Source: Myxococcus xanthus
GTDB lineage: Bacteria; Myxococcota; Myxococcia; Myxococcales; Myxococcaceae
Assembly: GCF_006402735.1 (NCBI RefSeq)
Contig: NZ_CP017174.1
Coordinates: forward strand, 6,738,001 to 6,802,000
DNA length: 64,000 bases
Reading direction: 5' to 3'
In this document: piece after piece, positions 43,753 through 61,076 of the stretch
Position numbering within the stretch: the stretch's first letter is position 1
How the letters are laid out: the number at the start of each line of letters is the position of its first letter
Program-made: the position numbers and the translations under genes
The notes under the pieces: model-generated
What the model was told of the DNA's origin: nothing
Databases searched by the model: none
Seen by the model: the letters and a program-made list of their open reading frames with translations, nothing else

Positions 43753-46122
43753 TCAGCGCTGGCTCCAAGCCAGCGTCTGGCGCAGCGGCCCGGTGCCCTC
43801 GTCCACGAACAGCAGACGGTTGGCGCCGTCCTCCCAGTCAAACGTGCCCTGGGAGCGGTCGCGCAGGAGCTTGTACTCGAAGACGGCGCCCACGGGCAGC
43901 GACAGCGCGAAGCCGTCGGGCCCTGGACGAAGCGAGCGCTCGGGTTTCCACCCGCCCAGCTCCGGCCCGCTGCCCACCAACCGCACCGACGGGTCATCCA
44001 CGGCCAGCTCCACCTTGCGCCGCGCGCCCATCCCCCGCCACCGCAGACCCGCGAGCCTCGCCGCCGTGGCGAAACCGCCCGCCGCCAGGGGCTTCAGCCG
44101 CGCCAGGGCCACCTCGCCGGCGGGCACGCGCATGAAGCCCGCGCCCCCGGCGGCCAACGGCGGCGCCAGGGCCAGCGGCTCCAGCTTCGCGCCGGCCAGC
44201 CCGTCGGGCAGCGGCACGTCCACGGCGCTGTCACGGGTATTCACGGCGATGACGACGGCCTCGTCGGCGGTGACGCGGGCGTAGGCGAAGAGGTCCTCCC
44301 GGGCGGCGAGCATCAACGTCTCGCCACGCTGGAGGGCCTCACTGCCTCGACGCAACGTCAGCAACCCGCCAATCCACGACCGAAGCGAGTGGTTCGTGAA
44401 GCGCATGTCGCCCCGGTTCTCCGGCTCCTTCGCGCCCTTCAGGCCCTCCTCGGTGCCGTAGGTGAGCGCCGGCACGCCGCGCGCGGTGAGCTGCACCGCC
44501 AGCGCCCGCTTCACCCGCTCCACGTCACCACCGCACTCGCTCATCACCCGGGGCAGGTCGTGGTTGTCCACCATCGTCACGAGCGAGCCCGGCGCCGGGT
44601 ACAGCCGGTCGTTGAAGAGGATGGCGCCCAGGTGCGACGGGGAGCGGTCCCTGCAGAAGACGTCCACCAGCGCGAAGGCCAGCGGGAAGTCGAACATCGT
44701 CCCGAAGCGACCTTCCTTCATCGTGTTCGACAGCAGCACCGGGTCGCCGTCCAGCATCTCCCCCAACAGCAGGAAGTCCGGCCCCGCGTGCTGGCGCAAG
44801 TCGTCGTTGTAGCGAGCCCAGAAGGAGGTGGGCATGTGCTTCACCGCGTCCAGCCGGAAGCCCGCGGGCTGGAGCACGTCCACCCACCGGCGCGAATGCG
44901 CCAGCAGGTGCGCGTACACGTCTTCCCTCTCCACGGCGAGGTCCGGCAGGCCGTGCACGTCTCCCATCACCAGCTCGCGTGAATCGTTCCAGTCCTTGAT
45001 GGGCCCCTGGCCGTGGAACCAGTCGGGCCGCTCACGCGACAGGCGCGTCTCCGGCCCCACGTGGTTGAGCACCACGTCCAGCACCAGCCGCATGTCCCGG
45101 CGGCGCAACTCCGCCGCCAGCGTCTTCAGCAGGGCCTCGTCTCCGAAGCGCGGTTCCACCTGACCGAAGTCCTCCACCCAGTAACCGTGGAAGGCGCCGT
45201 ACCCATGGAACTTGTCGGTGCGCATCTGGAAGACGGGTGAAAGCCACACCGTGCGGACACCGAGCTGCCGCAGCCCGTCCAGTCGGTCAATGACTCCTCG
45301 CAGGTCTCCGCCGTGAAAGGCCTGCGCGTCCTCCAGGTCCACTGCACCGTCGTTCTTCGGGTCTCCATTGGAGAAGCGGTCCACCATCACGAAGTAGACC
45401 GCGTCTCCCGCCGGCGGCTCCCACAAACCCCGGTAGGGCTGGGGCACATCCGGCGTGCCCGTGCCCGGCTCGATGCCCGGTCCGGCCGGCGCGTCGAGGC
45501 CCGGCACCGTACCCGGCCCCCCGTCCGTGTCCGGCACCAGGAAGGGTGAGGCCAGGAAGGAGTCGAACAGCGCGCCCGCCTGTCCGGCAATCTGCGTGGC
45601 CACCTCCAACTGCGCATCGTCCTCGCGCTGCTGGTCGAACTGAAGCGCCGCGCCGTAGTCCTGGGTGACGACGGTGGGCGCCATGGCGGAGTCCGCGCGC
45701 GCGCCCGTGGTCCGCACCGAGATGTCCCACGAGAAGCGGCCCCCCACCTGGCTGAAGAACGACACCCGCGTCTCCACCAGCAGGTGCAGCGGCGCCTCCG
45801 GCGTCAGCGCCTTCAGCATCTCGAAGCGGCGCTGCGAGTCGCGCACCTTCGCGAAGTAGGCGGCGTAGTCCGCGTAGGGCACCACCTCCACGCGCAGGTT
45901 GCGCCTGGCCAGGGTCTCCGCGATGCGCTGCTTCAGTCCTTCCGGGACGTCCGCCACCACGCCGGCCCGCCTCGCGTCATCCCGCACGTAGGCCACGGCG
46001 ACCACCGTGCCGCTGGGAGCCAGGGGCGGAGGCGCCGCGCGGGGAAGACACGCCGCGAGCGTCACCGCGGCCAGCGCCGCGGTGAGGGAGACCACCACGC
46101 TCCATCGCCTTGTCAGAACCAT
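43753..46122 (-). CDS. Lipoprotein alpha-amylase (GH13) with novel N-terminal domain and C-terminal CBM20
   Basis: 789 residues; lipobox TLAAC with Cys25. Residues 37-195 form an alpha/beta domain not usual in amylases (GTVVAVAYVRDDARRAGV, LVETRVSFFSQVGGRFSWDISVRTTG), then a Pro/Gly linker. GH13 barrel about 235-620: VYFVMVDRFSNGDP, LVLDVVLNHVG, nucleophile in GFRLDAVKH (Asp425), acid in LLLGEMLDG (Glu455), TMVDNHD (Asp522). The last 90 residues resemble a CBM20 starch-binding domain (VRLVGSGPELGGWKP, FEYKLLRDRSQGTFDWEDGANR). The start overlaps the end of the barrel-protein gene by ten bases. It should cut starch or maltodextrin on the cell surface or in the periplasm. Confidence 0.88.
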   Translation of the reverse strand: MVLTRRWSVVVSLTAALAAVTLAACLPRAAPPPLAPSGTVVAVAYVRDDARRAGVVADVPEGLKQRIAETLARRNLRVEVVPYADYAAYFAKVRDSQRRFEMLKALTPEAPLHLLVETRVSFFSQVGGRFSWDISVRTTGARADSAMAPTVVTQDYGAALQFDQQREDDAQLEVATQIAGQAGALFDSFLASPFLVPDTDGGPGTVPGLDAPAGPGIEPGTGTPDVPQPYRGLWEPPAGDAVYFVMVDRFSNGDPKNDGAVDLEDAQAFHGGDLRGVIDRLDGLRQLGVRTVWLSPVFQMRTDKFHGYGAFHGYWVEDFGQVEPRFGDEALLKTLAAELRRRDMRLVLDVVLNHVGPETRLSRERPDWFHGQGPIKDWNDSRELVMGDVHGLPDLAVEREDVYAHLLAHSRRWVDVLQPAGFRLDAVKHMPTSFWARYNDDLRQHAGPDFLLLGEMLDGDPVLLSNTMKEGRFGTMFDFPLAFALVDVFCRDRSPSHLGAILFNDRLYPAPGSLVTMVDNHDLPRVMSECGGDVERVKRALAVQLTARGVPALTYGTEEGLKGAKEPENRGDMRFTNHSLRSWIGGLLTLRRGSEALQRGETLMLAAREDLFAYARVTADEAVVIAVNTRDSAVDVPLPDGLAGAKLEPLALAPPLAAGGAGFMRVPAGEVALARLKPLAAGGFATAARLAGLRWRGMGARRKVELAVDDPSVRLVGSGPELGGWKPERSLRPGPDGFALSLPVGAVFEYKLLRDRSQGTFDWEDGANRLLFVDEGTGPLRQTLAWSQR

Positions 46123-47609
46123 CCTTCGGCCTCAATCGCGACCACCGAGTGCCAGTGACGCTCGGGGCCGACGTAAACGTTGTACTGGTCCAGGCTGTCC
46201 ACGAAGGAGTTGCCGAACGCCGCATGTTGGGTGGAGCGCTGGAGCCCGTACAGCAGCCGCAAGCTGGGGCGCGCGTAGATGCCGCGGCCCGTGGGGTTGA
46301 GCACCACACCGGCCTTGAACTGCCAGGTGTCGCGCGTATCGCTGTCACCGAACTCCAGGCCGCGCGCGTCCGCCATGCCGTCGGTGCTGGTGAACACCGA
46401 GTCCACATGGTTGCGGTAGAGATTGCCGTTCAGGCTCTTCTCGCGCGCGATGCTGCTCTCCGCCAGGAGGTGAACCCTGTCGGTGAGGAAGTACTGAAGG
46501 CGAAGCACCGTGGAGGCGATGACGCGGTTGTCCTCACCCGCGGCGATCTTGTTGTCCTTGTTGAACGAGTAGCCGGCCCACACGCCCCAGAGCGCCTCCA
46601 GCTTGTCGGGGATGATGCGCAGGTAGGCCTCGTTGCCGAGGTTGGCGTCGTAGCGCTCGTCGGTCTGGTCCGTGACGTACACGGTCCAGTCCCGGCCCCG
46701 GAAGTTCTCCGTGTAGAAGGGCTGCGGGTGGCGCTTCTCGAACGTCAGGTACAGGTTGCTCCACACCAGCGGCCCCACTCCGCCGAAGCCCACGTAGCCC
46801 ATGGCCCGGTACGACAGCGCGCTGCGCGCCTTGAGGTCCGGTACCAGGTCCTCCGCGCCCGGGTTGGCCTCGAAGTAGCGCCGCACCACCTCGCGCCGCG
46901 CGAAGCTCTCGTAGCTGGTCCCAGGCGACGCGTAGAGCGCGTTCCGGTTGCCGCGCACCGCGGGCTCGTAGCCCACCTGGCCGCGGATACCCACCTCCAG
47001 GTGCCCGGGGATCAGCCGGTAGCGGAACGACGCGGCGCCCGTCAGCACCGTATTGTAGTTGTTCGGGCGCAGTGTGTAGCCGCTGTCCCCCACCGCCAGC
47101 AGGACGTCGTAGCGGTCGCCCTGGTACGTGCCGGACAGGCCCACCGTGTCCCAGAGCAGCGTGCCGGGACGCTGGTCGTAGATGTGCAGGTCGTTCCAGC
47201 GGTCCTCGAGCGTGCCGAGCTGCCACGTCACCCGGTCCAGCAGGATGTTGCCGGCGCGGACGAAGAGGTAGTCGGCGCTGAAGTTCACCAGCGAGCCATT
47301 ACCGGGGTCCGCCGAACGAAACGACCTGCCGGAGATACGGGAGTGAACCTCTGCCCACACCTCGTCGGACCCCGGCGTGGCCTGCAGCGCATCCAGCCGG
47401 AGGTTGAGCTCTCCGTAAGGGCTTTCGTTGAGGAGCCGTCCGTAGAGCCAGTAATAGCCCAGCTGGCCAGAGCCGCCCGAAAAGTCCGGACGGGTCATGA
47501 TGCGGAAGTAACCCGCTGCCCCGAAGCGATCGCGAGGCGCATCGGCCAGGGCAACGAGCGGCAGGAACGTCAACAGGATGGCGCCGAGGCGCGCAGGCAG
47601 GACTCGCAT
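46113..47609 (-). CDS. Outer-membrane beta-barrel protein, maltoporin-like
   Basis: 498 residues from ATG 47609 (MRVLPARLGAILLTFLPLVALADA), a signal peptide. The mature chain is made of alternating aromatic/polar strands (LGYYWLYGRLLNES, YDVLLAVGDSGYTL, WSNLYLTFEKRH, LRLQYFLTDRVHLLAES) and ends in Phe (AIEAEGWF), the assembly signal of outer-membrane barrels. The end, with ARPSLRLLYGL and then an E-x-W-F finish, recalls LamB maltoporin (RPAIRVFATY ... MEIWW). Its position between two alpha-glucan hydrolase genes supports an oligosaccharide channel, but the family assignment is tentative. Confidence 0.72.
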   Translation of the reverse strand: MRVLPARLGAILLTFLPLVALADAPRDRFGAAGYFRIMTRPDFSGGSGQLGYYWLYGRLLNESPYGELNLRLDALQATPGSDEVWAEVHSRISGRSFRSADPGNGSLVNFSADYLFVRAGNILLDRVTWQLGTLEDRWNDLHIYDQRPGTLLWDTVGLSGTYQGDRYDVLLAVGDSGYTLRPNNYNTVLTGAASFRYRLIPGHLEVGIRGQVGYEPAVRGNRNALYASPGTSYESFARREVVRRYFEANPGAEDLVPDLKARSALSYRAMGYVGFGGVGPLVWSNLYLTFEKRHPQPFYTENFRGRDWTVYVTDQTDERYDANLGNEAYLRIIPDKLEALWGVWAGYSFNKDNKIAAGEDNRVIASTVLRLQYFLTDRVHLLAESSIAREKSLNGNLYRNHVDSVFTSTDGMADARGLEFGDSDTRDTWQFKAGVVLNPTGRGIYARPSLRLLYGLQRSTQHAAFGNSFVDSLDQYNVYVGPERHWHSVVAIEAEGWF

Positions 47610-47646
47610 GGGCGGGCCCTGCTTATAGCGCAACCTGCTTGCCTGC

Positions 47647-50088
47647 CTACTCCGCACGCAGGACGACGATGGTTCTTTCCGGCATCCCGTACGTCGGACC
47701 GTTCACTGGTGACGGCATATCAAGCCACGAGTTACCCGTGGACCGGCTGTCCAGGCCCGCCGTCGTGAGATAGGCGGGGCTGTCGAAGTACGCCTGCGTG
47801 TCGATGAGCCGCGTCCACTTGCGGCCTTCGGGCAGCGTGAACTCCACCGCGCGGGGCTCCATGTTGATGAGCACCAGCAGCTCCGGCCCGTAGGACGCGT
47901 CGTGGTAGTGAATCATCAACTGCTTGCTGTCCCACGCCGCCTCGGTGTTCTGCGCGCTCTTCCAGGCCAGCGGCGCGCCCTTGCCATAGTCCTTCGGCGC
48001 GAAGGCGTAGGCGTGCTCCTTGCGCAGGCGGATGGCGGCCTTCACGAACTCGAACATGCGGTGACGTTCGTCGCGCGCCAGGTACGCGCCCCACTGGTAC
48101 CAGTTGAAGGGATTGTCAGACAGCGTGGAGTAGGCGTTGTTGTTGCCCAGCTGCGTGCGCATCCACTCGTCGCCGCCCAGGATCATCGGCGTGCCGTGGC
48201 TGATCATCATCGACATGAAGGCATTGCGAATCATCTGCCGCCGCATGCTCTCCGCGCGCTCGTCGCCAATCGGCCCCCAGCTGCGGGAACGGTTGTGCTC
48301 CTCACCGCTGACCTTGTCGCAGAAGGGGCTGTTCGGTGTGTCACAGCACACCGGGTTCAGCGGACCGCAGCGGTTCTGCTTCTCGTCGTACGCGAACAGG
48401 TCGTACATCGTGAAGCCGTCGTGCACGGTGATGAAGTTCATGGAGTGATACGGGCGGCGGCCATTGCGCTCGAACCACTCCTGGCTGCCATGCATCAGGA
48501 AGCCGCCGTCCACCGTGCCGGGCCGGCCGCACAGCGACCCCTCGTTGGAGTTGAGCTTCCAACCGTCCTGGTTCATGAACGCGCGCCACCAGTCGCGGAA
48601 GCGGCCGTTCCACTCGTACCAGCCATTGCCCGGCTGCGTCTTGGCGTTGGGGAACTCGCCCAGCGGCATGCAGTACCAGCCGCCCGCGCTCCACGGCTCG
48701 GCCATGATGCGGGTGTTGTACTTCTGGAGCACCGGGTCGTCGATGACGTCCTGGAGCACGGTATTGCGCGGGTCGTCCCAGCGGTTGTAGTCGCCGTCGC
48801 GCTCGCCCAGGATAGGCGCCAGGTCGAAGCGGAAGCCGTCCACGTGAAGCTCTTCCACGTAGAAGCGCAGGCTGTCGATGATGAGCTTGCGCGTGGGCCG
48901 GTGGTTGGGGCGCGTCTGGTTACCGACGCCGGTGTTGTTCCAATACGTGCGGCGGTCCGGGTTGAGCGCGTAGTACGCCTGGTTGTCGATGCCGCGGAAC
49001 GAATAGAGGCCAGCCGTCTCCGCGGGGTCCAGGGACTCCAGCGGCTCGCCGGGCATGACGTCATCCGTCTCCAGCTTCTCGCGCCAGAGGCCCCCCTCGC
49101 CGGTGTGGTTGTAGACGACGTCGATAATCACCTCGATGCCGTGCTTGTGGAGTTGCTCCACCATCCACTTGAACTCGTTGATGACCTGGTGCGGCTCCTT
49201 GAAGGCCGCGTAGGACAGCTCGGGCGCGAAGAAGTTGATGGTCTGGTAGCCCCAGTAGCCACCGTCCAGCGGCTTCTCGTGGATGGGCAGCAGCTCCACC
49301 GCGGTGATGCCCAGCTCAGCCAGGTAGGCCGCCTTCTCACCGAAGCCGCGGTAGGTGCCCGGGAAGCGCACGCCGCTGGCGGGGTCCGCCGTGAAGCCCT
49401 TGGCGTGGACCTCGTAGACGATGAGGTCCTGCCAGCCGTGGCCCTGCCAGTTCTCGTCCTGGCGGTTGGCGCGCCACTGCTGCTCCACCTCACCCCACTG
49501 GTAGTCGCCGCTCTTGACGAGGACGCTCTTGGCGGAGGCCGCGTAAGTCACCTCCGTGCGGGCCGGACCGCTGGCCGTGCTGCCCTTGCTCCAGTCGTGA
49601 TCGCGGTGCAGGGCCTTGGAGTACGGGTCCGTGAGCAGCTTGTTTGGATTGAAGCGGTTGCCGTAGACGTCCGCGTCCGCCTTGAAGCCATGGATGGACC
49701 CGGGGAACCACCGCGGGTCGAACTCCCAGTTGGGTCCCCATGCGCGGAAGCCGTAGTGCTGTCCCACGCCCACGCCTTCCACGTAGACGCTCCACACGTC
49801 GCCGTAGCGTGTCATCTCATAGGCGCGCGCCGGGCGGTTGCTCTCCGGGTCTTCGAAGAGCAGCAGCTCCAGCCGGGTGGCGTTCTCCGAGTACAGGGCG
49901 AAGTTCACGCCCTTGTCCACGTAGGTGGGGCCAATCTGGCGAAGGGACTCGATGTCGTCCACCGAGTAGCTCGGGGCCCGAGCATCACTGTGGTACAGCC
50001 GGACGTAGTCGCTCTCGCTACAGCCAGTGATGAACAGGGCGGTGGACAGCGCCGCGCCCACGAGGCGGGACATTCTGGGAGTGCGCAT
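47647..50088 (-). CDS. Lipoprotein GH13 debranching enzyme (GlgX/isoamylase-like)
   Basis: 813 residues from ATG 50088 (MRTPRMSRLVGAALSTALFITGC), a lipoprotein signal; the frame runs on to 50250 without coding sense. CBM48-like domain about 45-150 (VNFALYSENATRLELLLFED), then the isoamylase-type barrel: IVYEVHAKGFT, LGITAVELLPIHEKP, IIDVVYNHTGEGG, nucleophile in VDGFRFDLAPILG, acid in IMAEPWSAGGWYC, and FITVHDGFTMYDL. GlgX/isoamylases cut alpha-1,6 branches. The cytoplasmic relatives lack a signal, so surface or periplasmic debranching is implied. First gene of the leftward arm. Confidence 0.9.
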   Translation of the reverse strand: MRTPRMSRLVGAALSTALFITGCSESDYVRLYHSDARAPSYSVDDIESLRQIGPTYVDKGVNFALYSENATRLELLLFEDPESNRPARAYEMTRYGDVWSVYVEGVGVGQHYGFRAWGPNWEFDPRWFPGSIHGFKADADVYGNRFNPNKLLTDPYSKALHRDHDWSKGSTASGPARTEVTYAASAKSVLVKSGDYQWGEVEQQWRANRQDENWQGHGWQDLIVYEVHAKGFTADPASGVRFPGTYRGFGEKAAYLAELGITAVELLPIHEKPLDGGYWGYQTINFFAPELSYAAFKEPHQVINEFKWMVEQLHKHGIEVIIDVVYNHTGEGGLWREKLETDDVMPGEPLESLDPAETAGLYSFRGIDNQAYYALNPDRRTYWNNTGVGNQTRPNHRPTRKLIIDSLRFYVEELHVDGFRFDLAPILGERDGDYNRWDDPRNTVLQDVIDDPVLQKYNTRIMAEPWSAGGWYCMPLGEFPNAKTQPGNGWYEWNGRFRDWWRAFMNQDGWKLNSNEGSLCGRPGTVDGGFLMHGSQEWFERNGRRPYHSMNFITVHDGFTMYDLFAYDEKQNRCGPLNPVCCDTPNSPFCDKVSGEEHNRSRSWGPIGDERAESMRRQMIRNAFMSMMISHGTPMILGGDEWMRTQLGNNNAYSTLSDNPFNWYQWGAYLARDERHRMFEFVKAAIRLRKEHAYAFAPKDYGKGAPLAWKSAQNTEAAWDSKQLMIHYHDASYGPELLVLINMEPRAVEFTLPEGRKWTRLIDTQAYFDSPAYLTTAGLDSRSTGNSWLDMPSPVNGPTYGMPERTIVVLRAE

Positions 50089-50327
50089 CAGGTAGGCTGA
50101 CCTCGAGGTCCGGACATGACTCGGCCCGGCAACAAAACTCCGTTTCCATAACAAGCGCCTTCCGTGCCTGACAAGGCAGGGCCCCGGTTTCGACTCGGGA
50201 ACAGACCTTCGTTCACTGATGCACGCCTGGGAATGATGTAGCGCGTGCAACCAAGGAGGTTTGAGGAAACAAGGAGCGTCCGGGTAAGGTGTGCGACCGT
50301 CTCCCCATTCATTTCTCCGAGCACGAC

Positions 50328-51416
50328 TTGTCCGAAGTCACCCTGAGCGGGATCAAGAAGTCGTTTGGCCAAAACCTCATCGTGAAGGGCGTGGACCTTC
50401 AGGTGGGTGAAGGTGAATTCCTGGTGATGGTCGGCCCGTCCGGGTGCGGGAAGACGACCTTGCTGCGGCTCATCGCGGGCCTGGAGCAGGTGGACGCGGG
50501 CGAGGTGCGCATTGGCGGCGCCCGGGTGAATGACGTTCCGCCGCGTGATCGCGACGTGGCGATGGTGTTCCAGTCCTATGCGCTCTACCCGCACATGACG
50601 GTGCGGGAGAATCTGGCCTTCGGCCTGACGCTCCGGAAGTTCCCCGCCACGGAGATTGAGTCGCGCGTGCGGGAGGTGGCCGGAATGTTGGAGCTGAGCC
50701 ACCTCTTGGAGCGCAAGCCCAAGGCCCTGTCCGGCGGCCAACGCCAGCGCGTGGCCATGGGGCGAGCCATCGTCCGCCGCCCGAAGGTCTTCCTCTTCGA
50801 CGAGCCCCTCTCCAACCTGGACACCGCGCTCCGGGTCCAGATGCGCGGCGAGCTGGCCCGGCTGCACCGCCGGCTGGGCGCGACGATGATCTACGTCACC
50901 CACGACCAGGTGGAGGCCATGACGCTGGCCACCCGCGTGGCCGTCTTCAATGGCGGGCTCCTCCAGCAGGTGGGCCCGCCGCTGGAGCTTTACAACCGCC
51001 CCGCCAACCCATTCGTCGCGGGGTTCCTCGGCTCCCCCTCCATGAACTTCCTGGAGGCGCGGCGCGAGGGGGCTCAGTTTACCGGCAAGGGCTTCACCCT
51101 GCCCTGTCCAGCGGACGTGGCCACTGAGGAAGCCACGGTGCTGCTGGGTCTGCGTCCCCAGGATTTGCGCGTGATGTCCCAGGGGCCCCTCACCGGCACC
51201 GTGGACGCGGTGGAGCGACTGGGCTTTGACGGGTACGCCTTCGTCAACACGGAGGCCGGTCCGGTGGCGGCGCGCTTCGACAAGGGTGTGAATGTCGTGG
51301 TGGGTGACAAGGTGCACCTGGTCCCCGTGGCGGACGCGCTGCACGTCTTCTCCAAGGACGGCGCGAAGGCGCTGCGCCATCCGGAGCAGCCCGCCTCGCT
51401 GGAGGTCGCGTCGTGA
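50328..51416 (+). CDS. malK: MalK/UgpC-type ABC transporter ATPase
   Basis: 362 residues if it starts at TTG 50328 (LSEVTLSGIKKSFGQ), where the family normally begins; a GTG at 50289 would add 13 unlike residues, and neither start has a strong ribosome site. ATPase of a CUT1-type sugar importer, on the cytoplasmic face. Walker A VGPSGCGKTT, Q-loop FQSYALYPHMTVREN, signature LSGGQRQRVAMGRAIVR, Walker B VFLFDEPLSNLD, H-loop VTHDQ. The C-terminal regulatory TOBE domain (about 235-355) is present. Its stop overlaps the next start (GTGA). Context with GH13 genes points to maltodextrin. Confidence 0.92.
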   Translation: MSEVTLSGIKKSFGQNLIVKGVDLQVGEGEFLVMVGPSGCGKTTLLRLIAGLEQVDAGEVRIGGARVNDVPPRDRDVAMVFQSYALYPHMTVRENLAFGLTLRKFPATEIESRVREVAGMLELSHLLERKPKALSGGQRQRVAMGRAIVRRPKVFLFDEPLSNLDTALRVQMRGELARLHRRLGATMIYVTHDQVEAMTLATRVAVFNGGLLQQVGPPLELYNRPANPFVAGFLGSPSMNFLEARREGAQFTGKGFTLPCPADVATEEATVLLGLRPQDLRVMSQGPLTGTVDAVERLGFDGYAFVNTEAGPVAARFDKGVNVVVGDKVHLVPVADALHVFSKDGAKALRHPEQPASLEVAS

Positions 51417-53593
51417 GCCAGTGGCTCGGCCTGGCGCTGCTCGCCACGGCGCTGAGCGCGCACGCGGCGCCTGAGACGGAGAAGCCGCTGAAGCTGTGGC
51501 ACGCGTACCGCGGCGGCGAGGAGACGGCGCTCGTCCAGGCCACGGAGCTCTTCACCGCGAAGACGGGCGTCCAGGTGGAGCTGCTCGCCCTGCCCTACGA
51601 CGCCTACGCGGCCAAGCTGACCAACGCCATTCCCCATGGCGTGGGCCCGGACCTCTTCATCTTCAACCACGAGCGGCTGCGCAACTTCCACGCGCTGCAC
51701 CTGATGGCCCCCGCCAGTGGCCTGGCGCGCGAGGACTACTTCCCCAACGCCGTGGAGGCGCTGGAGGTGGATGGCCAGGTGTACGGCTACCCCATGTCGC
51801 TCAAGTCGCTGGCGCTCTACGTCAACACGAAGCTCGTGACCCAGCCGCCGGAGACGACGGACGCGCTGCTGGCGATGCTGCCCGCGCTGTCGGACGCGGA
51901 CGCGGGCCGCTTCGGGCTGGCCTATGAGAGCGGCGACTTCTACTTCCACGCGGGGTTCCTCTTCGGCTTCGGCGGCGAGCTGTTCGATGCAAACGGCCGC
52001 GCGAGCTTCGACACACAGGGGATGGCCCGCTCCCTGGCCTTTGTGAAGGACCTGCAGGACCGGCGCTTCATCCCCCAGGAGGCCTCGGGCGCGCTGGTGA
52101 AGAGCCTCTTCAACGACGGCCGTGCCGCCATGATCATCAGCGGGCCGTGGTTCGCCGGGGAGATTGCCCCCAACGTGGACTACCGCGTGGTGGGGCTGCC
52201 GGTGGTGAGCACCACGAACATCCCCATCCGCCCCTTCCTGGGCGTGGAGACGGCCTACGTATCCGCGCGCTCCAAACGAGCGGAGCAGGCCCAGGCGCTG
52301 GCGCGCTTCATCTCCTTGGGCGAGGCCTCGCGCGTGCGGGCCATGGTGGGCCGGCAGATTCCGGCGGACGTGGCCGCGTACACGCTGAAGGAGGTGCGGG
52401 AGGACACGCTCATCTCCTCCTTCCGCGAGGCGGCCCGCCACGCGACGCCCATGCCCAACACGCTGGAGATGGCGCGCGTCTGGGAGCCCATGAAGCTGGC
52501 GCTGCGCGCGGTGCTCCAGGGCGGCACCGAGCCCCAGGACGCGGGCGCGCTGGCGGACCGGCGCTACCGCGCGCTGCACCGCGAGCGCCCGCCCGACGCC
52601 AGCCCCCTGCCCTGGCTGGGCCTGGTGGGCGCCATGGCGCTGGGCGGCTCCGTCTATGTGCTGCGGCGCCCGGCGGCGACGCTGCCCTTCAAGCGCCGTT
52701 ACCCGGATGTGGCGCAGGCGGTGGCGTACATCACCCCCGCGGCGGCCGGCGTGGCGGTGCTGGTGTTCGTCCCCTTCGCGGTGGGCCTCAGCCTGTCGCT
52801 GTTCCACCACGAGGCAGGGGAATACTCCTTCGTGGGCCTGGCCAACTTCGTGGATATCCTGGCCAGCCGCGGCTACAGCATCACCGAGCCCCTGTCCTTC
52901 TATTTCACGCTGGCCGTGACGCTGCTGTGGGCGGTGGTCAACGTGGTGCTCCACGTCAGCATCGGCCTGTTCCTGGCGCTGCTGTTGAAGGATCCACTGC
53001 TGAAGCTGCGGGGTGTCTACCGGGTGCTGCTCATCATCCCCTGGGCCGTGCCCAACTACATCACCGCGCTCATGTGGAAGGGCATGTTCCACCGGCAGTT
53101 CGGCGCCATCAACGGCCTGCTGGTCGCCCTGGACCTGGAGCCGGTGAGCTGGTTCACCCGCTTCTCCACGGCCTTCGCGGCCAACGTGGCCACCAACACC
53201 TGGCTGGGCTTTCCCTTCATGATGGTGGTGGCGCTGGGCGCGCTCCAGTCCATCCCCCAGGAGCTCTACGAGGCCGCGGAGGTGGACGGCGCGAGCAAAT
53301 GGACGCAGTTCCGCCGCATCACCCTGCCGCTGCTGAGGCCCGCCATGCTGCCGGCCGTCATCCTGGGCAGCGTGTGGACCTTCAACATGTTCAACATCAT
53401 CTACCTGGTGTCCGGCGGTGAGCCGGGCGGCGGCACCGACATCCTGGTGTCCGAGGCCTACCGTTGGGCCTTCCAGCGCAACGAGCAGTACGGCTTCGCG
53501 GCGGCGTACTCGGTCCTCATCTTCGTGGTGCTGCTGGTCTGGTCCGCCTTCACCAAGCGCCTGATGCGGTCGTCCTCGGAGGTGATGGGATGA
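51413..53593 (+). CDS. Fused MalE-MalF: sugar-binding protein joined to ABC permease
   Basis: 726 residues in one uninterrupted frame. Signal peptide 1-19, then a type-1 solute-binding domain about 24-385 (LKLWHAYRGGEETALVQ, VGPDLFIFNHERL, YGYPMSLKSLALYVNTKLV, GRAAMIISGPWF). A membrane helix at 401-418 followed by a basic stretch (RRPAATLPFKRR) anchors it, then the MalF permease from about 435 with the EAA loop EAAEVDGASKWTQFRRITLP (620-639). In most bacteria these are separate proteins; here the binding domain is tethered to the channel. The GTG start overlaps malK and the stop overlaps malG. Substrate is probably maltodextrin, from context. Confidence 0.9.
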   Translation: MSQWLGLALLATALSAHAAPETEKPLKLWHAYRGGEETALVQATELFTAKTGVQVELLALPYDAYAAKLTNAIPHGVGPDLFIFNHERLRNFHALHLMAPASGLAREDYFPNAVEALEVDGQVYGYPMSLKSLALYVNTKLVTQPPETTDALLAMLPALSDADAGRFGLAYESGDFYFHAGFLFGFGGELFDANGRASFDTQGMARSLAFVKDLQDRRFIPQEASGALVKSLFNDGRAAMIISGPWFAGEIAPNVDYRVVGLPVVSTTNIPIRPFLGVETAYVSARSKRAEQAQALARFISLGEASRVRAMVGRQIPADVAAYTLKEVREDTLISSFREAARHATPMPNTLEMARVWEPMKLALRAVLQGGTEPQDAGALADRRYRALHRERPPDASPLPWLGLVGAMALGGSVYVLRRPAATLPFKRRYPDVAQAVAYITPAAAGVAVLVFVPFAVGLSLSLFHHEAGEYSFVGLANFVDILASRGYSITEPLSFYFTLAVTLLWAVVNVVLHVSIGLFLALLLKDPLLKLRGVYRVLLIIPWAVPNYITALMWKGMFHRQFGAINGLLVALDLEPVSWFTRFSTAFAANVATNTWLGFPFMMVVALGALQSIPQELYEAAEVDGASKWTQFRRITLPLLRPAMLPAVILGSVWTFNMFNIIYLVSGGEPGGGTDILVSEAYRWAFQRNEQYGFAAAYSVLIFVVLLVWSAFTKRLMRSSSEVMG

Positions 53594-54438
53594 ACCGCCC
53601 CTCGCGCTTGAAGATGGCCGCCATCCACGCCGGGCTGACGCTGCTGTGCATGGCCACGCTCTACCCGGTGCTCTGGGTGGTGAAGATGGCGCTGTCGCCC
53701 ACGGACGGGCTGGCGCTCACCGCCAACCCCTTCCCCGAAACCGTCACGCTGGAGCACTTCCGGCAGGTGCTCTCCGGCACGGACGCGGCGGGGCGGTGGG
53801 TGTTCGGCCGGCAGCTCCTGGCGAGCATCGTCGTGGCGGGCGCCACCACGCTGGTGGGCCTGACGCTGGCGGTGTCCGCGGCCTACGCGCTGTCGCGCTT
53901 CCGCTTCCCCGGCAAGGAAGGCGGGATGCAGGCGCTACTGGTGACGCAGATGTTCCCGGCGACGCTGATGATGGTGCCCATCTACAGCATCCTCCAGAAG
54001 CTGCACCTGCTGGACAGCCTCACGGGGCTCGTCCTCGTCTACGCCACCACCGCCCTGCCCTTCTGCATCTGGAACCTCAAGGGCTACTTCGACACGCTGC
54101 CACGCGAGTTGGAAGAAGCGGCGGTGATGGACGGCGCCTCCACCTTCCAGGTGTTCGTGCGCGTGGTGCTCCCGCTGGCCCGGCCCGCGTTGGCCGTGAC
54201 GGCGCTCTTCTCCTTCATGACGGCGTGGAACGAGTTCATCCTCGCCGCCACGCTGCTCAATGACCCGTCCCGCTTCACCCTGCCCGTCGCGCTCCAGCGG
54301 TTCGTGGGCGAGCACAAGGTGGAGTGGGGCAAGTTCGCCGCGGGCGCGCTCATCGTCTCCGCGCCGGTCATGGCTTTGTTCTTCGCTCTCCAGAAACACC
54401 TCGTCGGCGGGCTGACCGCTGGCGGCGTCAAGGGGTGA
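53590..54438 (+). CDS. malG: MalG-type ABC transporter permease
   Basis: 282 residues from ATG 53590, overlapping the fusion gene's stop (ATGA). Six membrane helices. The EAA loop contacting the ATPase is ELEEAAVMDGASTFQVFVRVVLPLARPA (near residue 175). Starts RLKMAAIHAGLTLLCMATLYPVLWVVKMALSP and contains SAAYALSRFRFPGKEG, both typical of MalG. Forms the channel with the MalF part of the fusion protein. The following lipoprotein gene begins at or just after its stop. Confidence 0.95.
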   Translation: MNRPSRLKMAAIHAGLTLLCMATLYPVLWVVKMALSPTDGLALTANPFPETVTLEHFRQVLSGTDAAGRWVFGRQLLASIVVAGATTLVGLTLAVSAAYALSRFRFPGKEGGMQALLVTQMFPATLMMVPIYSILQKLHLLDSLTGLVLVYATTALPFCIWNLKGYFDTLPRELEEAAVMDGASTFQVFVRVVLPLARPALAVTALFSFMTAWNEFILAATLLNDPSRFTLPVALQRFVGEHKVEWGKFAAGALIVSAPVMALFFALQKHLVGGLTAGGVKG

Positions 54439-54443
54439 TGTCG

Positions 54444-57400
54444 ATGTCGTCTCGCTGTCTCCGTGCCCTCTTCCTCGTCCTGCCTCTGCTGGTCGTCGCC
54501 TGTGACGGTGACTCAGACGGAGGTCCTTCTCCCAGCGACAACGCGCCCATCGTGCGGGAGGTCCAGCCTTCGGGCGGCCCCGTCGCGGGCAACACGCTCA
54601 TCAACGTCTACGGCTCCGGCTTCAAGGAAGGCGCGAAGCTCTACTTCGGCCAGCAGGAGGCCCTGCGGGTGGTGGTGGTCAACACCTACCGCATCTACGG
54701 CTACACCCCCACCGCCACCTCCGGCGTGGTGGACGTGCGCGTGGTGAACCCCGACAGCGCCCACGGCACCCTGGTGGGCGGCTTCACCTTCGAAGGCGCG
54801 CCGTCGGCGAACATCGACCAGGCCGAGGTGCTCAACGGCAACGTGGACGCGGTCAGCAACGGTCAGCCGGTGGGTACCACCGTGCGCGGCGCCGTCACCG
54901 TGGCCGGCATCACCCGTGGCACGGGCCAGGGCGGCGGCACCCGCGCGCAGGTGGGCTTCGCCCCGGCGAACGCGGAGTTGCTCAACCCGGAGAGCTACAC
55001 CTGGGAAGAGGCCACCTACGAGGGTGACTCGGGCAACCGCGAGGCGGACATCTACCAGGGCACCGTGCTGCTCCAGCCGGCCATTGGTGGTGCGCGCAAC
55101 GAGTGGGTCGTCACCATGCGCTTCTCCATCGACAACGGCGCCACGTGGGTGATGGCGGACGGCGATGGCAGCGCCAACGGCGTGTCGGAGGACATGCTGC
55201 GCCGGGTGTTCATCTCCCGTCCGCGCGTGGACTATTGCAAGCTGGGCCCGGACAACAACCGCGGGCCGCTCAACGTCTTCTACCGGCCGGGCGACACCGC
55301 GCTCATCAAGGTGGCCGGCCAGGTGTACGCGGCGGGCGTCACCCAGGGCGGTGGCGCGGGCTCGGGCCTGGTGGCGCAGCTCGGCTACGGCCCGGCGGAT
55401 TCGGACCCGAGCAGCGACAGCGGCTGGACGTGGATCAACGCCAAGTACAAGACGGACCACGGAAACAACGACGAGTGGGAAGCCGACCTGCCCAACCCGG
55501 GCACCGTGGGAACCTGGCGCATCGCCTACCGCTTCAGCATCAGTGAGAACGCGTGGCGCTTCTGCGACGTGGACGGCGTCAACGACAGCAACGAGGGCGA
55601 GCTGACCTTCAGCCTGACCAAGCTGGGCACGCTCACCGTGGGTGATGAGGCGCCGAAGCCGCAGGTGACGTGGTGCAAGATTGGCCTCGACCAGACGGCG
55701 CCGGAGCCCATCAACTACACGACCACGCAGACGTCGGGCCTGAAGACGGTGTACGCCCAAGTCAACCTGCCGGGCGTGACGGACCGCGAAGGCGCAGGGC
55801 CGAACCTGGCGGGCCAGCTCGGCTGGGGTCCCGTGGGTGAGGACCCGCGCACCTCGCCGCTGTGGAACTGGTCAGCCCAGCTGACTTTCGACAAGGACAA
55901 CTTCGAGGTGAATGACCAGTGGAAGGGCACGCTGCCCAACCCGGCCATCAACGGCGAGTACCGCTACGCGGTGCGCTTCAACCACGACGGCGGCCCCATC
56001 CGCGTGTGCGACGGCAACGGCGTGGACGATGGCGGTCAGAACTTCGAGATGGACCAGCTCGGCACGCTCAACGTGACGGGCCAGCCCGTCATCCCGCGCG
56101 TCATCGGGTACTGCAAGCTGGGGCCGGATGGGAACAACACGCCGGAGACGGTGACGTATACGACGACCACCACGCCCAGCCGCCGGGTGGAGGCGCAGGT
56201 GTACGTGCAGGGCGTGACGAACGCGGTCGGCCAGGGCGCGGGCATTGTGGGTCAGCTGGGCTGGGGGCCCGCCGGTGAGGACCCGGCCACGTCCTCGCAG
56301 TGGAACTGGACCACGAGCGGCACCTACGTGTCGGACCTCGGCAGCGCCAATGATGTGTACGAGGCCACGCTGCCCAACCCGGGCGCGGTGGGCAGCTACC
56401 GGTTCGCCTACCGCTTCCAGGTGAACGACGGCGAATTCCTCTACTGCGACGCGGACGGTAACAGCGGCGGGGCCTCCGGCTTCGACGCCGCGCTGATTGG
56501 CACGCTCACGGTGACGGAGGCCCAGGCCATCAACGTGGTCAACTACTGCAAGCTGGGACCGGATGGGAACAACACGCCACAGTCGCTGGCGTACACCACA
56601 GGCGAGGCGGCCAGCCACGTCATCATCGCGTACGTCAACGTGGCGGGCATCACCGACACCACCACGGGCGAAGTCGCGGACATCGTGGGCCAGCTCGGCT
56701 GGGGTCCCGTGGGTGAGGACCCGGCCACATCCGACGAGTGGGCTTGGAGCACGACGGCCCAGTTCAAGGACGACTTCTGGGACAACGACGAGTACGAGGC
56801 CACGCTGCCCAACCCGGGCACGGTGGGCAGCTACCGGTTCGCCTACCGCTTCCAGGTGAACGGCGGCGCGTTCATGTACTGCGACGCGGACGGCAACAGC
56901 ACCAACCCGGAGCACGGCTTCGACGTGGCGCTGACGGGCAGCCTGGCGGTGAGCGCGCAGAACCCGGAGCCCGAGCCGACGGACAGCTACTGCCGCCTGC
57001 TGAACGTGAGCGGCACGACGGTGGGCAGCGGCGACATCGTCACCGTGGTGGGCCGGGTGCACATCCCGGGCGTCACCGCGGGCGAGGGTCCGGGCGCCAA
57101 CGTCCAGGTGCAGGTGGGCGTGGGCGCCGCGGACGCCAACGCGTCCACCCAGGCGGTCGCGTTCACCTGGAAGGCCGCGGAGTACACCGGCGAGGCGAAT
57201 GGCGAGGCGGACACGGATGAGTTCTCCACCACCGTGACGCCTGCCTACACCGGCGACCGCGCCGTCAGCCTGCGCTACTCCACGGACGGCACGACGTGGA
57301 CGTACTGCGACAAGGACGGCAGCAACGTGGGTGGGTACACGCTGGGCCAGCAACACGCCCTCACGGTGGGCAAGCACACGGGGATTGGCTACTGCAACCT

Positions 57401-57776
57401 CCAGTGGCCCTTCGAGATTGCCGTGGGCGCCGAGGGTGACCCGCGAATCGTCTACGGCCAGCTACACGTGGACGGTGTCACGCCCGGCAGCGGCCAGGGT
57501 GCTGGCGTCGTCGCTGAGCTTGGCTACGGCCCCGCGAGCAGCGACCCGGGCATCTCGGGTTGGACGTGGGTGGCAGCCACGTACCTCAGTGACGAGGGCA
57601 ACAACGATCAGTACTCCGTAAGCCTGCCGGAGGGAGTGTCGGCCGGGACGTCCTACGCGTACCGCTACTCGCTCAATGGCGGGCCGTTCTGCTACGGCGA
57701 CCGGAACGACCGGGGCGGCAGCGGTAACACCGGTAACGGCTTCCAGGGTGGGGACCTCGGCACGGTCATCCCGTAG
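54444..57776 (+). CDS. Large lipoprotein: IPT/TIG domain plus seven tandem repeats
   Basis: 1110 residues from ATG 54444, placed eight bases after AAGGGG; an ATG at 54438 overlaps the malG stop. Lipobox VVAC (Cys20). An IPT/TIG domain is at about 33-117 (VREVQPSGGPVAGNTLINVYGSGF). Seven repeats of 130-148 residues follow. Most have a (Y/W)C(K/N/R)LG start, a V-x-GVT strand, QLGWGPxGxDP, NDxYEAxLPNPG, YRFAYRF and a YCDxDG end, so each probably forms a disulfide. No enzyme motif. Last gene of the ABC-transporter operon, so glucan binding on the cell surface is the likely role; that is inference from context. Confidence 0.82.
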   Translation: MSSRCLRALFLVLPLLVVACDGDSDGGPSPSDNAPIVREVQPSGGPVAGNTLINVYGSGFKEGAKLYFGQQEALRVVVVNTYRIYGYTPTATSGVVDVRVVNPDSAHGTLVGGFTFEGAPSANIDQAEVLNGNVDAVSNGQPVGTTVRGAVTVAGITRGTGQGGGTRAQVGFAPANAELLNPESYTWEEATYEGDSGNREADIYQGTVLLQPAIGGARNEWVVTMRFSIDNGATWVMADGDGSANGVSEDMLRRVFISRPRVDYCKLGPDNNRGPLNVFYRPGDTALIKVAGQVYAAGVTQGGGAGSGLVAQLGYGPADSDPSSDSGWTWINAKYKTDHGNNDEWEADLPNPGTVGTWRIAYRFSISENAWRFCDVDGVNDSNEGELTFSLTKLGTLTVGDEAPKPQVTWCKIGLDQTAPEPINYTTTQTSGLKTVYAQVNLPGVTDREGAGPNLAGQLGWGPVGEDPRTSPLWNWSAQLTFDKDNFEVNDQWKGTLPNPAINGEYRYAVRFNHDGGPIRVCDGNGVDDGGQNFEMDQLGTLNVTGQPVIPRVIGYCKLGPDGNNTPETVTYTTTTTPSRRVEAQVYVQGVTNAVGQGAGIVGQLGWGPAGEDPATSSQWNWTTSGTYVSDLGSANDVYEATLPNPGAVGSYRFAYRFQVNDGEFLYCDADGNSGGASGFDAALIGTLTVTEAQAINVVNYCKLGPDGNNTPQSLAYTTGEAASHVIIAYVNVAGITDTTTGEVADIVGQLGWGPVGEDPATSDEWAWSTTAQFKDDFWDNDEYEATLPNPGTVGSYRFAYRFQVNGGAFMYCDADGNSTNPEHGFDVALTGSLAVSAQNPEPEPTDSYCRLLNVSGTTVGSGDIVTVVGRVHIPGVTAGEGPGANVQVQVGVGAADANASTQAVAFTWKAAEYTGEANGEADTDEFSTTVTPAYTGDRAVSLRYSTDGTTWTYCDKDGSNVGGYTLGQQHALTVGKHTGIGYCNLQWPFEIAVGAEGDPRIVYGQLHVDGVTPGSGQGAGVVAELGYGPASSDPGISGWTWVAATYLSDEGNNDQYSVSLPEGVSAGTSYAYRYSLNGGPFCYGDRNDRGGSGNTGNGFQGGDLGTVIP
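54847..57776 (+). repeat. Seven tandem coding repeats of about 390-445 bases
   Basis: Units begin near 54847, 55230, 55667, 56107, 56541, 56986 and 57387. Units 4 and 5 are close at DNA level: about 35 bases near 56109 and 56543 differ at one position, and about 65 bases near 56361 and 56794 are almost the same. The first and sixth units are the most diverged. Confidence 0.85.
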
Positions 57777-57922: not shown

Positions 57923-57994
57923 GGGCGGATAGCTCAGCGGTAGAGCGGCGCCCTTACAAGGCGATGGTCACAGGTTCAATCCCTGTTCCGCCCA
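57923..57994 (+). tRNA. tRNA-Val (anticodon TAC)
   Basis: Acceptor GGGCGGA pairs with TCCGCCC, the D-arm is GCTC-AGCGGTA-GAGC, the anticodon loop is CTTACAA and the T-arm is ACAGG-TTCAATC-CCTGT. CCA is not encoded. The top pair of the anticodon stem (G27-A43) is a mismatch. Confidence 0.92.
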
Positions 57995-58009
57995 CTGTTG
58001 TACCGATGT

Positions 58010-58086
<77 letters not shown>

Positions 58087-58090
58087 ATAA

Positions 58091-58131
58091 GAAGGGCCCG
58101 GAATCGCAAGGTTCCGGGCCCTTCGCCTTTT
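58091..58131 (+). terminator. Intrinsic terminator after tRNA-Asp copy 1
   Basis: A perfect 13-bp stem (58091-58103 with 58112-58124), an 8-base loop, then CCTTTTA. A textbook Rho-independent terminator. Confidence 0.9.
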
Positions 58132-58176
58132 AGTGAGAGGCTCGGGTTTTGGCCCTGCCGCTCGCAGCCCCCATCT

Positions 58177-58253
<77 letters not shown>

Positions 58254-59840: not shown

Positions 59841-60881
59841 TCAGTCCAGCGGGGGCACGTCCCGGCCCTCGCCGAAGCCCAGGGCCCAGAAGCGTGGCCG
59901 GATGGGCTCGCGCGCCAGCAGCCACAGCAGGTGGTACTTCGCCTCGTCCTGGCCATCCGTCGCGAGCGCGAAGGTGCCGTAGTGCATGGCCACCGACGTG
60001 GACGAGCGCAGCACCTTGTGCGCCTGGAGGGCTTCCACCGGCCCCATGTGGATCGGACGGAAGGAGGTGGGCCGGTAGGCACCAATGGGCAGCACCGACA
60101 GCCGCATGGGCCCGAAGCGCTCGGCCATCATCGCGAAGTGGGGACCGAAGCCCGTGTCTCCAGCGAAGAAGACGGGCCCGCCGGACGTCGAGAGGACGTA
60201 GCCCGCCCAGAGCGTCGCCGCGATGTCGGTGAGCCCGCGGTTGGAGCTGTGCCGCGCCGGCACCGCCGTCACCGTGCGGCCCGGAGCCACCTCCGTGGAC
60301 TGCCACCAGTCCAACTCCACCACCTGGCGGAAGCCCTCGTCGTCCAGCAGCGCCTTGTTGCCCAGGCCCACGATGAAGCGCGGATGGTGCGCCTCCTCCA
60401 GGCGCCGCAGCGTCGGCAGGTCCATGTGGTCATAGTGGTTGTGGCTCACCACGACCACGTCGATGGGTGGCAGGTCCTCGAAGCGGATGCCCGGAGGCCG
60501 CACGCGCCTGGGGCCGATGAAGGACACCGGGCTCGGACGGTCCGAATAGATGGGGTCCGTCAGCATGTTGAGCCCATCCGCCTGGACCAACACGGTGGCG
60601 TGGTTGATGAACGTCACCCGGAGCTGTCCCGGCCCCACGCGCTCCGGAGGCGGCTTTCCTGGAGGAGACTCCTCGTAGTCCCGCCAGGAACCCCGAGGAG
60701 GCCCATTTCGCAGCGCCTCCATGATCTCCTCCGGACTCAGGGGCTTGACGGGCTCCAGGTTCTGGAAGTGCCTACCGTCGAAGTGCTCCGTCACCGGTCC
60801 CTGGTGACGCGGGCCGGCGAAGAGACAGCCTCCGAGCCACGGAACCCCCAACAGCAACAACACCGATGCGAGCCTCGACAT
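59841..60881 (-). CDS. NAPE-PLD-like metallo-beta-lactamase lipoprotein
   Basis: 346 residues from ATG 60881, with GGAG nine bases upstream; lipobox LGGC at about residue 19. The fold motifs are VTFINHATVLVQADGLNMLTDPIYSDRPSP, VVVVSHNHYDHMDLPTL (zinc site), VTAVPARHSSNRG, VFFAGDTGFGPHFAMMAERFG and the final VAMHYGTFALATDG. These are typical of N-acylphosphatidylethanolamine phospholipase D and UlaG-like hydrolases. Bacterial members are lipases or of unknown substrate. Intact gene among relics. Confidence 0.87.
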   Translation of the reverse strand: MSRLASVLLLLGVPWLGGCLFAGPRHQGPVTEHFDGRHFQNLEPVKPLSPEEIMEALRNGPPRGSWRDYEESPPGKPPPERVGPGQLRVTFINHATVLVQADGLNMLTDPIYSDRPSPVSFIGPRRVRPPGIRFEDLPPIDVVVVSHNHYDHMDLPTLRRLEEAHHPRFIVGLGNKALLDDEGFRQVVELDWWQSTEVAPGRTVTAVPARHSSNRGLTDIAATLWAGYVLSTSGGPVFFAGDTGFGPHFAMMAERFGPMRLSVLPIGAYRPTSFRPIHMGPVEALQAHKVLRSSTSVAMHYGTFALATDGQDEAKYHLLWLLAREPIRPRFWALGFGEGRDVPPLD

Positions 60882-61076
60882 GCGTGTGGCGCTCCATGCA
60901 AGACACCTCGGAAACCAACCCGCGCGGCCCGGGCCCGCGTCCGTGTGCCAGTCCAACAGTGGACTGGGTTCAGGCCCGGCCGGCAACCTGGAATGCGCAC
61001 ACCAGAAGCGGTGCACCGCCGGTGTCACGCGACGGTGACGGTGCGCGAACTCCCAGGCGGCCACCGCCCCCCGTGC

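Follow-up and report, generated by a model that had tools for sequence, protein, structure and literature searches.

How might a predatory soil bacterium bring the sugar of a branched glucan across two membranes, and which proteins would serve each step? The question is raised by a divergent locus of Myxococcus xanthus, contained in a stretch of 64,000 nucleotides that is here called the window (NZ_CP017174.1, positions 6,738,001 to 6,802,000; the genome is a single contig of 9,316,447 bases). The locus is a variant of LamB/CUT1 glucan uptake whose unusual parts are a fused receptor, a repeat lipoprotein and, above all, a domain that looks like a porin partner; the most surprising result is a candidate frameshift in the amylase gene of its relatives. 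In the coordinates of the window, the parts are:

47647..50088, minus strand: gene C, GlgX/isoamylase-like GH13 debranching-type lipoprotein with CBM48 (lipobox ITGC; open frame to 50250)
46113..47609, minus strand: gene B, LamB-family outer-membrane porin (Pfam LamB; open frame to 47657)
43753..46122, minus strand: gene A, lipoprotein with an LptE/PelC-like N domain, a GH13 alpha-amylase domain and a C-terminal CBM20 (lipobox LAAC)
45541..46020, minus strand: N-terminal domain of gene A, confidently modelled part, proposed porin partner (model; position by lamB)
44410..45393, minus strand: GH13 catalytic domain of gene A (Pfam boundaries; catalytic motifs)
44881..44895, minus strand: in gene A, the in-frame counterpart (S-R-R-W-V) of the relatives' putative +1 frameshift site, with no signal here
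43798..43989, minus strand: CBM20 of gene A (Pfam)
50089..50288, no strand: divergent intergenic region between the two arms, about 200 nucleotides
50289..51416, plus strand: gene D, MalK-type ATPase (Pfam/NCBIfam)
51413..53593, plus strand: gene E, MalE-MalF fusion (Pfam/NCBIfam; 726 residues, one frame)
53590..54438, plus strand: gene F, MalG-type permease (Pfam/NCBIfam)
54438..57776, plus strand: gene G, lipoprotein with a TIG domain and seven immunoglobulin-like (Ig-like) repeats of 128–148 residues (Pfam, repeat analysis, model)

From sequence-based assignments of the families, porin, importer and lipoproteins, and from their co-conservation, we infer a route for the scavenging and import of alpha-glucans (starch, glycogen, maltodextrin), which is probably correct as a whole, its partner-domain and related-clade frameshift steps included. 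At the outer membrane, lipoprotein C would remove alpha-1,6 branches and lipoprotein A would cut alpha-1,4 links, and the maltodextrins would cross through porin B. The N domain of A would partner this porin and keep the amylase by the channel mouth, probably at the periplasmic face. The tethered MalE domain would then capture the sugars and pass them to MalF-MalG-MalK for import, while lipoprotein G, with its several domains, would serve this system as a binder or scaffold. Full-length amylase would, in one related clade, require a prfB-like +1 ribosomal frameshift, and ribosomes that did not shift would make the N domain joined to a catalytically dead half barrel. Such a system would provide a concrete route of sugar uptake in predatory soil bacteria, with a porin that has a dedicated, enzyme-carrying lipoprotein partner. 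As the source of the sugar, prey glycogen and plant starch are indistinguishable from sequence.

Gene content and conservation of the locus

Outward from the divergent centre, the left arm reads C, B, A and then hemE (PF01208 by Pfam), and the right arm reads D, E, F and G. All eight reading frames of the preliminary description are open where it had placed them. Likely starts were refined for C (50088), B (47609), MalG (53590) and the repeat lipoprotein (54438); the identity of the last stands, and its length becomes 1112 residues in place of 1110. The overlaps described for the right arm are present (4 nucleotides for malK/malEF, ATGA for malEF/MalG and TGATG for MalG/repeat lipoprotein). 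On the left arm B and A overlap by 10 nucleotides, and hemE starts 54 nucleotides past A. Lipoboxes are present in A, C and G in the window, and relatives were also examined.

The specificity for alpha-glucans claimed in the preliminary description is supported by the two GH13 enzymes, CBM20, CBM48 and the maltose-type importer. Gene A matches Pfam Alpha-amylase (1.5e-47) and CBM_20 (1e-6), above the gathering score, and its GH13 domain lies nearest to 4e2o and Anoxybacillus amylases; gene C matches Alpha-amylase and CBM_48, with a GH13 domain nearest to GlgX and isoamylase. Motif searches gave catalytic regions I–III in A and I, II and IV in C, the others being located by eye. The channel had been described as maltoporin-like, and membership of the maltoporin family is indicated by Pfam both in the window and in relatives: LamB (PF02264) matches B at 4.7e-7 (30.5 bits against a cut-off of 25.1), over the C-terminal third of the protein only, and 14 of the 15 aligned members, the window's included, have matches at an E value no higher than 0.1, the best being 8.6e-10. 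The CUT1 layout of a binding protein, two permeases and a MalK-type ATPase is present in one operon, and SBP_bac_8/1 and BPD_transp_1 occur within the single 726-residue frame of E, which bears out the tethered receptor. On these family assignments an alpha-glucan import system appears well supported. Several results weigh against it or its finer assignments. No PDB chain was matched by the porin family profile. The best NCBIfam model for C, GlgX (TIGR02100), scores 459.8 bits, under its cut-off of 640.9, and the MalE, MalF, MalG and MalK models all fall short of theirs (141.1 against 291, 185.5 against 392, 198.5 against 261 and 410.5 against 568 bits), while ATPase D scores above the cut-off for UgpC. 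Because these equivalog cut-offs are not reached, the importer is not filed as a set of MalEFGK orthologues.

The enterobacterial maltose/pullulan system (LamB, MalEFGK and Klebsiella PulA) likewise comprises a LamB-family porin, a CUT1 maltose importer and a lipid-anchored debranching-type GH13 enzyme. The M. xanthus locus differs from it in that MalE is fused to MalF, the genes lie in one divergent locus, an amylase with an LptE/PelC-like domain stands beside the porin, and a repeat lipoprotein is present. Nor is the fusion without precedent: PDB lists 6ffl, which we take to be the Bdellovibrio MalE-MalF fusion, as a 'maltose/maltodextrin transport permease homologue', and it too joins a maltose-binding domain to a MalF permease. 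The 6ffl transporter differs from the locus, with its linked porin, GH13 lipoproteins and repeat lipoprotein, and it is not the nearest relative of the window's MalE domain, which matches 2gha and 6dtu at 2.3e-39 and 6ffl more weakly, at 2.0e-29.

Conservation was followed through 145 genomes of the order, representing 46 genera, with 27 genomes, the window's own included, from the window's genus. The porin occurs in 58, the repeat protein in 57, C in 61 and A in 58 (57 at 1e-70, and G129 at 1.2e-65). Conservation of the whole set in other Myxococcales, whose absence the preliminary description had named as grounds for dropping its proposal, is borne out: 57 of the 145 carry porin, C and A, 53 have all four with the repeat protein, and 82 have none of the four. 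The recurrence of the gene set is far beyond chance, and all seven other members of the genus for which the locus was fetched (L031-L037) have the seven-gene set in the same order.

The MalE-MalF fusion follows the porin, with matches spanning both parts in 52 genomes and partial matches on other contigs in three more. In family f8, five genomes were scored as having split MalE and MalF genes; the two that were read (G139 and G140) have one frame. The f8 fusions are longer than the window's (6933-9551 in L056, 8831-11656 in L057), and that of L056 starts like a lipoprotein. In G139, A, G, D, E and F share a strand within the stretch that was read, and B and C follow just outside it on that strand too. 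Genomes with separate MalE and MalF genes, perhaps Corallococcus- or Archangium-like, were considered as carriers of the same system and rejected: theirs was taken to be a related but different system, without a porin match at 1e-20, a threshold at which the porin search matched only 58 genomes.

The amylase N domain, the repeat lipoprotein and their placement

What is the N-terminal domain of A for? Gene neighbourhood is the stronger support for its being a partner of the porin, and fold the weaker. When loci were pooled by genome, without two cut stretches (L040 and L054), both from genomes that other loci represent, the N domain was found to start 77–126 nucleotides past the lamB stop (239 in one case) in 38 of the 39 genomes read. 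It is a free-standing frame in eight of these 38, from five genera (G140, G141, G142, G090, G091, G124, G050 and G053), and for three of them GH13 lies farther off or is absent from the fetched stretch. Because of this adjacency to lamB and these free-standing frames, the domain is taken to accompany the porin and not the enzyme, and it looks like a partner of the porin. The exception, G163, counts against this: there a GH13 frame without an N domain directly follows the porin.

Residues 35–194 of A gave no Pfam match and no PDB match by profile search. The predicted structure of the domain averages a predicted local distance difference test score (pLDDT) of 86, with most of the core exceeding 90, and in Foldseek and VIA searches it matches envelope lipoproteins or domains, namely FlgT, TolB-N, CsgG, TraT, LptE and PelC. 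The best VIA match is FlgT 3w1e (Z 9.5, 140 residues aligned, root-mean-square deviation 3.7), and 85 of 999 chains reach a Z of at least 8. Like LptE, PelC, CsgG, TolB-N and FlgT in its predicted fold, and encoded as a lipoprotein beside the gene for an outer-membrane barrel, it differs from them in that no sequence similarity was found (Pfam, PDB profile) and in that it shares a frame with GH13 in most genomes read. Two features of the fold matches speak against the partner role: Z scores of 8–9.5 stand only moderately above background, at 5–14% identity, and soluble enzymes appear in the list. The resemblance may reflect a common arrangement.

LptE, PelC and TolB-N sit on the periplasmic side of the outer membrane. 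If the N domain worked like LptE or PelC, the amylase would therefore lie on the periplasmic face, contrary to a surface location.

The locus had been called a non-TonB counterpart of Sus, the Bacteroides system in which SusC is a TonB-dependent receptor and SusD a lipoprotein. The analogy holds in outline, both systems combining a channel in the outer membrane with lipoproteins that cut or bind glucan, and goes no further: the channel here is of the LamB family and not SusC, no SusC- or SusD-type Pfam family was found among the eight proteins, and an ATP-binding cassette importer stands at the inner membrane. The layout is nearer to LamB/MalEFGK with a pullulanase lipoprotein, and PulA is a surface lipoprotein according to the available part of PMC3222651.

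A Sus-like complex on the cell surface, with all lipoproteins facing outward, the repeat lipoprotein binding starch and enzyme A extracellular, is nevertheless possible, though less likely than not. The CBM20 on A and the co-conservation of the repeat lipoprotein would agree with it, as would the N-termini of the lipoproteins. The available part of PMC3222651 gives Lys at +2 as the inner-membrane signal of M. xanthus lipoproteins (8 of 12) and Ala at +7 as the matrix signal (7 of 10). The N-termini of A, C and G have neither, which fits a predicted location in the outer membrane, on either face. Against the surface complex stand the N domain, whose fold matches include several periplasm-facing lipoproteins and domains, the lack of a TonB receptor or SusD family among the parts, and the repeats of G, which give no sign of glucan binding in profile searches.

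These repeats number 5 to 9 across relatives (L031-L049 and L057, in frames uncut by the stretch). Within the window genome the repeat family occurs once, the single other match covering the TIG domain, and tblastn of three repeats against plasmids gave no match. The two-repeat model (pLDDT 95, 79 rows) is an Ig-like sandwich. CBM_48 is a weak Pfam match to the whole of G (0.023) and to four of 79 repeat pairs (best 0.0086), the window pair having none; other glucan-related families are also sub-threshold on the repeats, amid unrelated weak matches. The repeats were tried as a known starch-binding module, and this was set aside after Pfam on the 79 repeat pairs, a PDB profile search, Foldseek and VIA returned nothing above background. 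Two results count against a role for G in glucan binding: the fold searches with the repeat model gave a generic Ig-like sandwich and no informative relative, and hhalign gave no match of the repeats to the locus's own CBM48 or CBM20. Since there is no profile match to CBM48 or CBM20 and the fold is a generic Ig-like one, glucan binding by G is a guess, drawn from the company that its gene keeps.

Might G then be a bystander, such as a matrix or adhesion protein, that merely adjoins malG? We think this unlikely. The lack of a CBM match in the repeats would agree with it, as would the extra genes that separate G from malG in several relatives, the four genomes that have porin, A and C without G, and the three with G-type matches and no porin. 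Against it, porin and repeat protein occur together in 54 of the 145 genomes, with the porin alone in four and the repeat protein alone in three (Fisher 4e-31, a value that ignores shared descent); by genus, both occur in 17, one alone in 3 and 2 respectively, and neither in 24 of the 46. Of the 24 fusion-type stretches fetched (L031-L054), 18 contain the repeat protein, in some cases separated from malG by other genes; of the other 16 stretches, one does. G overlaps malG in the window and sits between A and malK in G139.

A candidate frameshift site in related amylase genes

How, then, is the amylase made where its gene is broken? In 12 genomes of four genera (g4, g13, g25 and g26; loci L073-L084, genomes G130, G131, G133, G134, G135, G136, G132, G088, G129, G054, G051 and G052), gene A lies in two frames that part at about window residue 415. 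The window's gene A is a single frame, and the frameshift lies outside the window's own genome. At the break there is one extra base in comparison with in-frame homologues, and the site in all 12 is CGGAGGTGG followed by CTTC (11) or GTTC (1). The sequence CGGAGGTGG is found at none of 29 in-frame sites, which were read from 30 loci, G040 yielding no site, and which sample 8 of the 27 genus members. Catalytic motif I precedes the break and motifs II–IV, with the nucleophile, the acid and the third aspartate, follow it in the +1 frame (in G133 and in G088 the search pattern failed to pick up one motif each); therefore only the shifted product could be catalytic.

The layout corresponds to that of prfB, where a Shine-Dalgarno-like sequence, a spacer and a CTT slip codon make up the +1 site (available part of PMC12421855) and where GG_AGG occurs as an alternative (available part of PMC5009743). 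Relatives' gene A shares the in-phase xGG-AGG Shine-Dalgarno-like sequence, the 3-nucleotide spacer, CTT followed by a pyrimidine, and a TGA in frame 0; the Shine-Dalgarno-like sequence and its spacing are found in all 12 frameshift genes, with the slip codon CTT in 11 and GTT in one. It differs in being an amylase gene with no autoregulatory logic and in that a sense codon follows CTT, the TGA coming some codons later, which is a point against a programmed event. With this layout the relatives' site would act like the prfB element without being one. Dependence on ribosomal frameshifting for the complete product is also known in another glycoside hydrolase, an archaeal alpha-L-fucosidase (available part of PMC8037382), which differs in being archaeal, of another family and shifted by -1 instead of +1. 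The literature search found no frameshift in an amylase and no account of this locus, and the word 'amylase' is absent from the main text of PMC3711429 and from the available part of PMC5009743.

Several features of the sequence argue that the relatives' frameshift is programmed, which we regard as very probable, and make it improbable that the 12 two-frame genes are inherited pseudogenes or assembly errors. The break is identical in 12 genomes of four genera. At the break the four codons CGG AGG TGG TTC are nucleotide-invariant, and nowhere else in the 406 columns filled in all 12 do more than two such codons stand in a row; one of the four, AGG, makes up 7% of Arg codons in the same columns. 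A zero-frame TGA follows after six sense codons past TGG in 11 of the 12 (in G130 the stop comes after 27), and the Pro codon CCT, which keeps this TGA, is used in 10 of the 12 and at none of the 26 in-frame sites with Pro. Nonsynonymous substitution rates are below synonymous rates on either side of the break in all pairs listed, which are part of the pairs, and both halves appear to be under constraint. No second break was detected with tblastn pieces in 11 of the genes, the 5' end of that of G135 being cut by its contig.

Other results weigh against programming and would suit pseudogenes or errors. All 12 genes come from metagenome-assembled genomes, of which G051 and G136 share one sample label, and a shared ancestral one-base insertion would yield the same position. 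In G129 there is also a second break of the frame, which lies about 145 residues after the first, near window residue 560 (L081, near position 516), and which may be decay, an assembly error or something else. Still less probable is that re-initiation makes the two halves separately for assembly into a split amylase: although all 12 have an open +1 frame that reaches some way upstream of the break, and GGAGG could act as a ribosome-binding site, eight of the 12 have no ATG, GTG or TTG in the +1 frame from the preceding stop to the nucleophile motif, and the codons just past the break are already read as the +1 frame.

The site was also considered as a dispersed repeat and rejected as such, the 13-mer occurring one to three times per genome in seven genomes, about as often as a reversed control. 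A scan of 195 genomes of the phylum, with matches at 1e-70, found no further genome with the break, though weaker broken halves could be missed, as G129 was. When 84,980 named species genomes were scanned for the site pattern, 12 contigs were returned, corresponding to the 12.

In the tree, the 12 genes form one clade with two in-frame genes, those of G050 and G053 (support 98/99), which suggests one gain and two losses of the frameshift. In both G050 and G053 the N domain is free and the GH13 frame carries a lipobox-like N-terminus of its own, an arrangement that fits, without proving, a need for a separately made N domain. An apparent prfB-style +1 signal thus stands in a metabolic enzyme across four genera, and since it is missing from two in-frame members of the clade, recoding beyond release factor 2 becomes directly testable.

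How the frameshift bears on the porin is a further step, which we put forward tentatively. The N domain would be a dedicated partner of the maltoporin channel, which evolution would supply in three ways: as part of the amylase chain, from a gene of its own, or by a +1 frameshift like that of prfB, which yields both the partner with a dead half enzyme and the full amylase docked at the porin. If this were true, recoding would fix how many channel partners are made for each docked enzyme; that such a ratio is the purpose of the frameshift is held with far less confidence than that the frameshift is programmed.

Genes beside the locus

The preliminary description had noted no LacI-type regulator nearby, and none is present among the four flanking frames scanned, the extent to which the statement holds. 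Directly downstream of the repeat lipoprotein lie a tRNA-Val and two tRNA-Asp genes (window 57923-58253), and past them a metallo-beta-lactamase-superfamily protein is encoded (Lactamase_B_2, 6.9e-40; window 59841-61064). C and B are nearly contiguous in the window, unlike in relatives in which the two are separated by a gene for a PilZ-domain protein (Pfam 6e-14 to 8e-12; L039 3703-4113, L042 3652-4101 and L047 3768-4175); through this PilZ gene a link of the system to c-di-GMP is possible.

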